Assembly: GCF_900188225.1 (NCBI RefSeq)
Contig: NZ_FZOC01000003.1
Coordinates: forward strand, 62,001 to 126,000
From: Humidesulfovibrio mexicanus
Lineage (GTDB): Bacteria; Desulfobacterota; Desulfovibrionia; Desulfovibrionales; Desulfovibrionaceae
DNA length: 64,000 bases
Direction of reading: 5' to 3'
Of the stretch, positions 42,710 through 45,303 are shown in pieces. The notes below the pieces were generated by a model. It had not been told where the DNA came from and made no database searches. It saw only the letters and a list, made by a program, of their open reading frames with translations. Positions within the stretch are counted from its first letter, which is position 1. Every line of letters starts with the position of its first letter. The translations under genes were made by a program, and so were the position numbers.

Positions 42710-43060
42710 ATGGACATCATCAAGAAAATCGAACGCGAGCACATGCGCCTCGACATGCCCGACTTCCGCGCGGGCGACACCGTCAAGGTGCACACCCGCA
42801 TCATCGAGGGCGACAAGGAGCGCATCCAGGTGTTCCAGGGCGTGGTGCTCCGCGTGAACCGCGGCACCACCGACGCCACCTTCACCGTGCGCAAGGTCTC
42901 CGACGGCGTGGGCGTGGAGCGCATCTTCCCCATGCACACCCCCTCCATCGACAAGGTGGAAGTGGTGGCCAACGGCAAGGTCCGCCGCGCGCGCATCTAC
43001 TACCTGCGCAGCCTGGCCGGCAAGGCCGCCCGCGTCAAGTCCCGCCAGGCCTGGGATTAA
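42710..43060 (+). CDS. rplS: 50S ribosomal protein L19
   Basis: The 116-aa L19 has [32 protein letters not shown] and [19 protein letters not shown], all canonical. AAAAGGAG stands 8 bases before the ATG. It is the end of the ffh-rplS block; a terminator hairpin follows. Confidence 0.97.
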
Positions 43061-43093: not shown

Positions 43094-43139
43094 GTCCCCG
43101 GCGGAGCCTTTGAGCTTCGCCGGGGACTTGGTGTTTTCT
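43094..43139 (+). terminator. Intrinsic terminator after rplS
   Basis: A 10-bp perfect stem (GTCCCCGGCG/CGCCGGGGAC) with a further AGC/GCT pairing inside is followed by a T-rich tail (TTGGTGTTTTCT). Confidence 0.8.
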
Positions 43140-43216
43140 CTGCCCCGCCAGCATTGCCCGCCTTGCCTCTGGGCCCCCTTGCGGGTACCTTGCGGAAAAA
43201 TCGTGCAGGAGGCGGC

Positions 43217-43536
43217 ATGAACATCCTCATCGTCCTTTCCAGCCAGGACCCGGAAATCAAGTGGAACGCCCTGCGTCTGGGCAACTTCATGCTCAACGAG
43301 GGCGACGAGGTCACTTTTTCCTCAACGGCCCGGCAGCTGGCCTGCTGGACGGCGACTCGCCGACCTTCCCCATAGCGGAGCAGGCCAAGCTCTTCACCTT
43401 GAGCGAAGGCCGACTTGCCGCCTGAGGCAAGTGCCTGGACCTCCACGGCGTGGAGGCGAGCCCCTTGGCACAGCGTCAAGGCATGAAGGACCTGGCCGGC
43501 TCCATCCGCCAGGCCGACCGCATCCTCAACTATTGA
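43217..43536 (+). pseudogene. DsrE-family gene with a -1 frameshift and an in-frame UGA (possible selenoprotein)
   Basis: The frame opens with [20 protein letters not shown] and matches DsrE-like sulfur-transfer or redox proteins. At the T-run 43315-43319 the frame shifts: one more T would continue as [16 protein letters not shown] and [17 protein letters not shown]. Next comes UGA (43423-43425), then [16 protein letters not shown] and [10 protein letters not shown]. In relatives I would expect Cys at the UGA (C-G-K-C), so the codon could be a mutated Cys or selenocysteine (U-G-K-C). A SECIS-like hairpin follows at bacterial spacing. The intended product is about 107 aa. The frameshift may be a real mutation, slippage or a sequence error. 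AGGAGG precedes the ATG. Confidence 0.65.
43423..43456 (+). promoter_or_regulatory. In-frame UGA with bacterial SECIS-like hairpin
   Basis: After the UGA at 43423-43425 there is a perfect 7-bp stem CCTCCAC-GGC-GTGGAGG (43440-43456). The loop starts 21 bases after the UGA and begins with GG, inside the 16-37-base window with an early loop G known for bacterial SECIS elements. Confidence 0.45.
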
Positions 43537-43556: not shown

Positions 43557-44237
43557 ATGCCCAAAGCCCGCATCAAGGCTGCGCAAGCCGCCCTGCCCGA
43601 CCTGCCGCCCTTTGCGCCGCAGGGGCTTGTGGCGGGCCTGGACGAGGCCGGGCGCGGCTGCCTGGCCGGTCCTGTGGTCTCGGCCGCCTGCGTGCTGCCC
43701 GAACGCTACGACCTGCCCGGCCTCACCGACTCCAAGGCCCTCTCCGCCGATCGCCGCCACACCCTGGCCCTGGCCATCCGCCAGCAAGCCGTGGCCTGGG
43801 CCCTGGGCCTTGCCTGGCCGCGCGAAATCGACCGCGTCAACATCCTGCAAGCCTCCCTGCGCAGCATGGAGCGCGCCGCAGCCCGCCTGCGCGTGGCTCC
43901 GGTCCTGCTCCTGGTGGACGGCAACCAGCGCATCGACTCGCCCCTGCCGCAACACACCGTCATCGGCGGCGACGCCCTGTGTCCGGCCATCTCCGCCGCC
44001 AGCATTCTTGCCAAGACCTGGCGCGACCATCTTCTTTGCATCCTGGACCGTCTGCACCCCGGCTATGGACTCAGCATTCACAAGGGCTACGGCACCGCCA
44101 TGCACCAGGACGCCCTGCGCCGCCTCGGCCCCTCGCCCATCCACCGCCTGAGCTTTCGCGGCGTGCTGCCGGAACAACAACAATCCGCAACGCTGTTGCA
44201 GGAAAAGCAGCAATGTCTGCCCGGCATCTGCACGTAG
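43557..44237 (+). CDS. rnhB: Ribonuclease HII
   Basis: RNase HII removes ribonucleotides from DNA and RNA primers. The 226-aa product has [21 protein letters not shown] (first DE pair), [17 protein letters not shown] and the [12 protein letters not shown] segment with the catalytic Asp. The ATG at 43557 begins a normal-length protein; the frame before it has no similarity. The last 8 codons overlap the yraN gene start. Confidence 0.94.
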
Positions 44238-44620: not shown

Positions 44621-44651
44621 CCAGGCATAAGGCTTGGCGTACTGCCTGTTT

Positions 44652-45291
44652 CATGCTCCGCAGGCCAGGGGCTGCGCGCCCCTGGACCCGCGTGGATGGG
44701 GAAAGGGGCGGCGCTTCTTTTGCCTTCCCCTTTATCCGGGGTTCCAAGGGGCCGGAGAGGCCCCTTGGCCGCCGGAGGCATGAACCGGCACAAGCGCTCT
44801 GCCTGCATCATGCTCCGCAGGCCAGGGGCTGCGCGCCCCTGGACCCGCGTGGATGGGGAAAGGGGTGGCGCTTCTTTTGCCTTCCCCTTTATCCGGGGTT
44901 CCAAGGGGCCGGAGAGGCCCCTTGGCCGCCGGAGGCATGAACCGGCACAAGCGCTCTGCCTGCATCATGCTCCGCAGGCCAGGGGCTGCGCGCCCCTGGA
45001 CCCGCGTGGATGGGGAAAGGGGCGGCGCTTCTTTTGCCTTCCCCTTTATCCGGGGTTCCAAGGGGCCGGAGAGGCTCCTTGGCCGCCGGAGGCATGAACA
45101 GGCACAAGCGCTCTGCTTGCATCATGCTCCGCAGGCCAGGGGCTGCGCGCCCCTGGACTCGCGTGGATGGGGAAAGGGGTGGCGCTTCTCTTGCCTTCCC
45201 CTTTATCCGGGTTTCCAAGGGGCCGGAAAGGCCCCTTGGCCGCCGGAGGCATGAACCGGCACAAGCGCTCTGCCTGCATCATGCTCCGCTG
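44652..45291 (+). repeat. Four-copy 157-bp tandem repeat array plus partial fifth copy
   Basis: Units begin at 44652, 44809, 44966 and 45123, and a fifth starts at 45280 but is lost after about 11 bases. Each copy has exactly 157 bp with only a few substitutions. Every unit holds two palindromes (CCAGGGGC-TGCGC-GCCCCTGG and CCAAGGGGCC-GGAGA-GGCCCCTTGG) and a CATGCTCCGCAGG start. 157 is not a multiple of three, so the open frames across it change from copy to copy and are not believed to be genes. Confidence 0.95.
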
Positions 45292-45303
45292 GCCCCCCGA
45301 AGG

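Follow-up and report, generated by a model that had tools for sequence, protein, structure and literature searches.

A DsrE-like selenoprotein gene with a one-base frame break upstream of its UGA codon in Humidesulfovibrio mexicanus

The draft assembly of Humidesulfovibrio mexicanus (3.52 Mb in 15 contigs) contains, on contig NZ_FZOC01000003.1, a DsrE-like selenoprotein gene whose reading frame is broken by one base ahead of an in-frame UGA and a SECIS-type hairpin. The gene occupies positions 43217-43536 (plus strand, as for all features below unless stated) of the 64,000-nucleotide stretch analysed here, referred to as the window, and is flanked by rplS and rnhB. We propose that it has probably undergone a recent, lineage-specific inactivation, the deletion being real rather than an error of assembly. 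Judged by its sequence, the window gene is an orthologue of a known family of DsrE-like selenoproteins; the family has already been described, which leaves the frame break, a feature of this lineage alone.

Gene structure and the frame break

An AGGAGG read directly in the DNA (43207..43212) resembles a Shine-Dalgarno sequence and stands 4 nt 5' of the ATG at 43217, from which codons 1-33 (43217..43315) align with the N-terminal part of the relatives. Both the sequence and a codon-usage scan place a one-base break at 43313..43319, a site that includes TTTTT at 43315-43319. The 0 frame is closed by a TAG at 43373..43375, after 52 codons and upstream of the UGA, and homology resumes in the -1 frame from about residue 35 and continues through the final stop at 43534-43536; homology and codon usage together delimit this C-terminal part as 43318..43536. 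The codon-usage scan, which makes no use of homology, located the frame switch at 43312/43313, separating a segment at 43211-43312 from one that extends to 43533. Even with the UGA set aside, no single open frame joins start and stop: the break near 43313-43319 and the TAG at 43373 intervene. The UGA itself lies at 43423..43425, is identified as the selenocysteine (Sec) codon of a U-G-K-C motif by the TGA column of the homologues, and had been picked out, together with a perfect 7-bp hairpin bearing a GGC loop 21 nt further on, by an earlier sequence-only reading of this DNA; both features are plainly seen in the DNA.

UGA as a selenocysteine codon in homologues

A search of 59 genomes, including that of H. 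mexicanus, matched the DsrE-like gene in 21. TGA stands at the UGA column in 19 of the 20 other genomes with the gene, and in the last of them (G003) the contig ends after residue 39; the whole gene is unbroken in 17 of the 20. A wider scan of contigs with one degenerate pattern returned 126 stretches, of which 100 were confirmed and 80 kept, several of their genomes overlapping with the 59-genome search. Across these 80 loci the column holds TGA at 67 and Cys at 12, the remaining one being too short. By title, the TGA rows come mostly from Desulfovibrionales, Desulfobacterales, Syntrophobacterales or Deltaproteobacteria groups, and the Cys loci comprise six of Patescibacteria type, four archaeal, one gammaproteobacterial and one Flavobacterium record; Cys was seen at the column only in these distant homologues. 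UGA thus behaves as a Sec codon in the relatives, where Sec would be inserted.

The aligned rows also show variation around the motif. Nine rows (L016, L017, L022, L069, L070, L071, L072, L073 and L074) read UQKS, UGKS or UGKL: Sec is retained, and Ser or Leu stands where UxxC has its second Cys. Two of them, L016 and L072, are identical over 60 nt, which leaves eight distinct genes; of the six rows that carry a name, five come from Desulfohalobiaceae MAGs, and L069, L073 and L074 are three paralogues in one MAG (contigs JAIPDR01). A 2026 review gives the DsrE-like motif as UxxC (PMC13188914). A second Sec-type subfamily has the motif UGVC (mostly YVUGVCMKSHG) and accounts for 38 rows (L020, L021 and the 36 loci L086-L090, L092-L099 and L101-L123), mostly from Desulfobacterales-type genomes; it occurs twice in the window's own family and, in the corresponding register, does not have the UGKC stem.

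The SECIS-type hairpin

The hairpin downstream of the UGA, CCTCCAC-GGC-GTGGAGG (43440..43456), has two perfectly paired 7-bp arms (43440-43446 and 43450-43456) and an apical GGC loop (43447-43449) that starts after 21 nt from the UGA. Folded alone it reaches -10 kcal/mol, and none of 200 shuffled sequences folds equally well; a 56-nt fold taken more widely about the UGA does not stand out (z -1.04). The published bSECIS model describes a loop of 3-9 nt with a G in loop positions 1-2, an upper stem of 4-16 bp, a distance of 16-37 nt from the UGA and a minimum free energy of at most -7.5 (PMC13188914), and the window hairpin, with its 3-nt GGC loop, 7 bp, 21 nt and -10 kcal/mol, lies within all of these ranges.

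For covariation, the 38 sequences distinct over 42 nt were aligned, drawn from 50 rows of the UGKC-type subfamily that include the window gene; the 38 UGVC rows were left out. The stem positions pair in 98.5% of cells across the 38 distinct sequences; with the partners displaced by 1-3 columns, the figure drops to 25-53%. Changes on both sides of a pair occur in 16 cells against a shuffled mean of 4.5, a value reached by none of 500 shuffles, and two of the five covariation measures stay within the shuffles (pairs with a double change, 51 of 500; further pair types, 151 of 500). In this alignment, then, the hairpin is maintained by compensatory changes beyond chance. Most double changes lie in a single stem pair and are accompanied by altered residues (Leu with Glu, Ile with Asp, Val with Asp), so that at the stem the protein seems to be shaped by the RNA.

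A dipeptide under the hairpin behaves similarly. H-G, encoded 7-8 residues after Sec (window 43444-43449), is near-universal in the Sec forms, where the exceptions are R-G three times and H-E once, and is absent from the 12 Cys forms. The H-G codons make up the SECIS loop, so that here, too, the amino acids seem to be set by the RNA.

Selenocysteine machinery

Profile searches of the H. mexicanus genome returned selA, selB, selC and selD above cut-off, with best scores of 547.6, 381.1, 86 and 320 bits; the absence of these genes, which the sequence-only reading had named as evidence against its own proposal, was not found. All 14 control genomes likewise give scores with the tRNA-Sec, SelB and SelD models, over the cut-off in 5, 2 and 2 of them, and a second place in the H. 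mexicanus genome barely passes for tRNA-Sec (47.3 against a cut-off of 47). For these two reasons we relied only on the strong matches, which for tRNA-Sec means the one of 86 bits. The selD gene (G000:C3:126342-127268, minus strand) begins 342 bases beyond the point where the window ends on the right, roughly 20 kb away from the DsrE-like gene, and carries a TGA after RAAG (RAAG-TGA-AAK), which makes it a selenoprotein gene itself by its TGA.

Family and predicted fold

Read through the break and the UGA, the protein matches Pfam DsrE (PF02635) over residues 1-105 with 27.2 bits (cut-off 22.7; E 4.9e-06). Neither broken frame matches Pfam DsrE by itself, and the read-through protein found no match in NCBIfam. 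Structure prediction was carried out on the intact relative L044 rather than on the window copy, with alignment A3, which holds 39 of the 80 loci. The L044 model was predicted with high confidence (pLDDT 96.7), and the best solved match found by Foldseek was YchN of Escherichia coli (PDB 1jx7; E 1.1e-07, TMq 0.86), followed by DsrE-type proteins including DsrEFH. In the alignment the Sec position coincides with the first Cys of the YchN C-x-x-C motif, and the two proteins differ in the residue, Cys in YchN and Sec here. We found no literature joining YchN with DsrE.

DsrEFH is a three-subunit sulfur-transfer complex. The L044 model resembles its DsrE subunit in fold (PDB 2hy5, chain A, Foldseek E 3.3e-05) at 13% identity, and the immediate neighbours of the window gene are rplS and rnhB. 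YedF, a SirA-DsrE fusion tied to selenium metabolism, occurs in Se-using bacteria and likewise contains a domain of the DsrE type, whose motif is CGxC (PMC5322559); it is a fusion, whereas the window gene encodes a single DsrE-type domain with Sec.

The closest counterparts are the published DsrE-like selenoproteins, and the earlier statement that such proteins are known in bacteria is borne out by the literature: members with a UxxC motif were described in 2005 from the Sargasso Sea (PMC1088965) and in 2006 from Desulfovibrio vulgaris (PMC1794560), and the 2026 review lists the family while describing the functions of such proteins as largely uncharacterized (PMC13188914). They share with the window gene the Pfam family (PF02635), the UxxC motif and a bacterial SECIS just downstream, with one case in a Desulfovibrio, and the window copy differs from them by its one-base break before the UGA. 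From motif, Pfam family and taxon, the window gene would belong to the same subfamily as the published D. vulgaris protein. A U-x-x-C motif on a DsrE fold presumably fits a selenol/thiol redox, thiol/persulfide or sulfur-relay role.

Locus and genomic setting

Upstream of the gene lies an ORF at 42710..43060, which we take to be rplS (ribosomal protein L19), and the interval between the two contains a terminator-like stem-loop of 14 pairs (43094..43127), recognized by its match to a consensus. The downstream ORF at 43557..44237 is presumably rnhB (ribonuclease HII); its ATG is at 43557, and the start given in the ORF list is further upstream. Among 14 same-genus genomes searched, rplS was matched in 12, and rnhB comes after rplS in the genomes of this genus; the order rplS, DsrE-like gene, rnhB is found only in two of the 12 (G006 and G007). 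In G011 a contig end falls inside rnhB. The genome nearest to H. mexicanus by its rplS and rnhB proteins (G014; 83.5% identity, 83% complete) has no match to the DsrE-like gene. In the H. mexicanus genome itself no second copy was detected, both pieces of the same gene being the only matches.

Among ORFs of at least 70 aa within 4 kb, no neighbour family recurs at more than 5 of the 80 loci. The three families found at five loci are one ABC-transporter-like ATPase and two that stand beside Cys-type Patescibacteria genes, so context suggests no function for the Sec type, no recurrent neighbour family supporting a pathway. A plasmid search matched five records, haloarchaeal DsrE genes of less than 40% identity, and a phage search matched two unannotated records through the rplS part of the query alone (bases 152-440). 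Rfam gave no match over the whole window. Some distance downstream, at window positions 44642-45294, a 157-bp unit is repeated in 4.2 copies with 96% matches; the array precedes an opposite-strand ORF that we take to be a glutamine-synthetase-like gene.

Origin of the frame break

In the intact relatives, SelB carrying Sec-tRNA would bind the hairpin just 3' of the UGA, so that UGA is read as Sec, and the product, about 106 residues long, would adopt the YchN/DsrE fold and have Sec and Cys where YchN has C-x-x-C. In the window genome, a one-base deletion near codon 34 would bring translation, 52 codons in, to the TAG, short of both the UGA and the active site. Because the TAG precedes both, the window gene most likely yields no functional protein. 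The wording of the sequence-only reading, that one T is missing from the run at 43315-43319, held only in part: the frame break is there, and the proposed identity of the lost base finds no support. In the column right after V-T, the unbiased genome search gives I in 7, L in 7, V in 4 and F in none of 18 distinct copies. A larger set of 91 distinct rows gives V 47, I 33, L 11 and F 0, a count biased by the 80 of 101 rows that come from the scan whose pattern required I, L or V at this place. As every one of these 18 distinct copies has V, I or L and none has F, loss of a T is not supported; another base may have been deleted, and the T5 run may be a product of the deletion.

The rest of the gene shows little decay. 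By the Nei-Gojobori method, comparison with the nearest copy (L002) gave dN 0.082 and dS 0.59 for the N-terminal part and dN 0.185 and dS 1.0 for the C-terminal part, while two intact copies (L002 and L005) gave dN 0.283 and dS 0.87, and dN 0.202 and dS 0.54, for the same parts, with dS near saturation. There is no sign of long neglect, and the UGA, the UGKC motif and the stem are intact, which suggests that the break is recent. The branch to the window in a small tree is long, so the tree would not fix the date of the break. The same lack of further decay, with motif and SECIS intact and purifying selection, is also expected of a sequence error.

The draft assembly might thus contain a one-base consensus error, the gene in the organism being an intact and ordinary functional DsrE-like selenoprotein gene. 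In all but one base the copy is as in the whole-gene relatives (purifying selection in both parts, UGKC, SECIS), and single-base errors beside homopolymers are common with some sequencing technologies. Against this, a codon-usage frame scan of 264 kb (the window and ten 20-kb stretches) revealed no second clear frame break. In a control the switch was placed at 54 of 60 planted deletions, all in ORFs of at least 200 aa and scored by the appearance of the switch rather than by the flag rule, with short genes less covered. Same-strand switches numbered 24 in the window and 88 in the ten extra stretches, of which the automatic rule flagged 5 and 16, respectively. Four of these 16 were checked against ORFs and are ordinary adjacent genes; the other 12 were judged from the table alone, where a start codon lies close to the boundary or one of the segments is very short, and the four other flagged window switches were judged from the scan tables. 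Since no second clear break appeared in 264 kb, indel errors seem rare in this assembly, and a real inactivation is the likelier of the two. Loss is also plausible on other grounds: 38 of the 59 genomes have no match to the gene, among them 31 of the 47 with a completeness of 90% or more, and in two genomes the copy looks damaged. Loss of the gene thus appears common and the gene dispensable. We therefore regard a consensus error as possible and somewhat doubtful, and continue to favour a real, recent inactivation.

If the deletion is real, ribosomal or transcriptional slippage on the T-run could in principle restore the frame, a -1 shift being followed by Sec insertion (slippage and recoding are reviewed in PMC5009743). 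The T-run at the break, the intact UGA and hairpin, and a C-terminal part without clear relaxation of selection count in favour of such a rescue. Yet the break is not conserved, 17 of the 20 other genomes with the gene being unbroken, and the shift site is accordingly not shared by orthologues, as it would be in programmed -1 frameshifting. Slippage would moreover place Phe at the position that V, I or L occupies in all 18 distinct copies. Transcriptional slippage that works efficiently in bacteria is associated with runs longer than T5, and at T-TTT-TCC re-pairing would be open to the P-site tRNA alone. Rescue by slippage is, in our judgement, highly improbable, and it is just as hard to credit that slippage at a low rate, combined with Sec insertion as a second recoding event within about 110 nt, keeps a little selenoprotein being made. 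Of the three explanations offered by the sequence-only reading, decay is thus favoured, sequence error is possible and slippage is unlikely.

We also considered a programmed shift shared with two other genomes, G058 (L018) and G056 (L022), which match the gene only from residue 33, near the window break, and rejected it. For G058, no N-terminal part was found in the preceding 150 nt, whichever frame was read. The G056 gene is broken in at least two places, one of them near the start, and close to the T-run its frame shifts in the direction opposite to that of the window gene. We read both as independent damage. The wider scan is blind to a shared break, since its pattern extends across the site and admits only copies that stay in one frame and have I, L or V there; broken or Phe copies would escape it.

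That the UGA is a plain stop, and the hairpin a chance by-product of the H-G codons CAC GGC, which do supply part of it, can be dismissed in the face of the Sec/Cys column, the compensatory stem changes, the selA, selB, selC and selD genes, the published family and the absence of the H-G pair from the 12 Cys homologues. The proposal that this is a DsrE-like selenoprotein gene with a SECIS is upheld by the homologues, the stem covariation and the Sec machinery alike.

Discussion

The copy in H. mexicanus is probably broken or slightly mis-sequenced, and the find is largely ordinary. Were slippage to rescue the gene, two recoding events would meet in a single small bacterial gene, a rare case; nothing here points in that direction. 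The gene adds an entry to a described selenoprotein family and gives the look of a freshly broken member, with an indel upstream and the UGA, the SECIS and the active-site motif intact. The wider alignment is worth more than the single copy: it provides a clean Sec/Cys column, a stem with compensatory changes, and an H-G dipeptide that tracks the SECIS loop rather than the fold.
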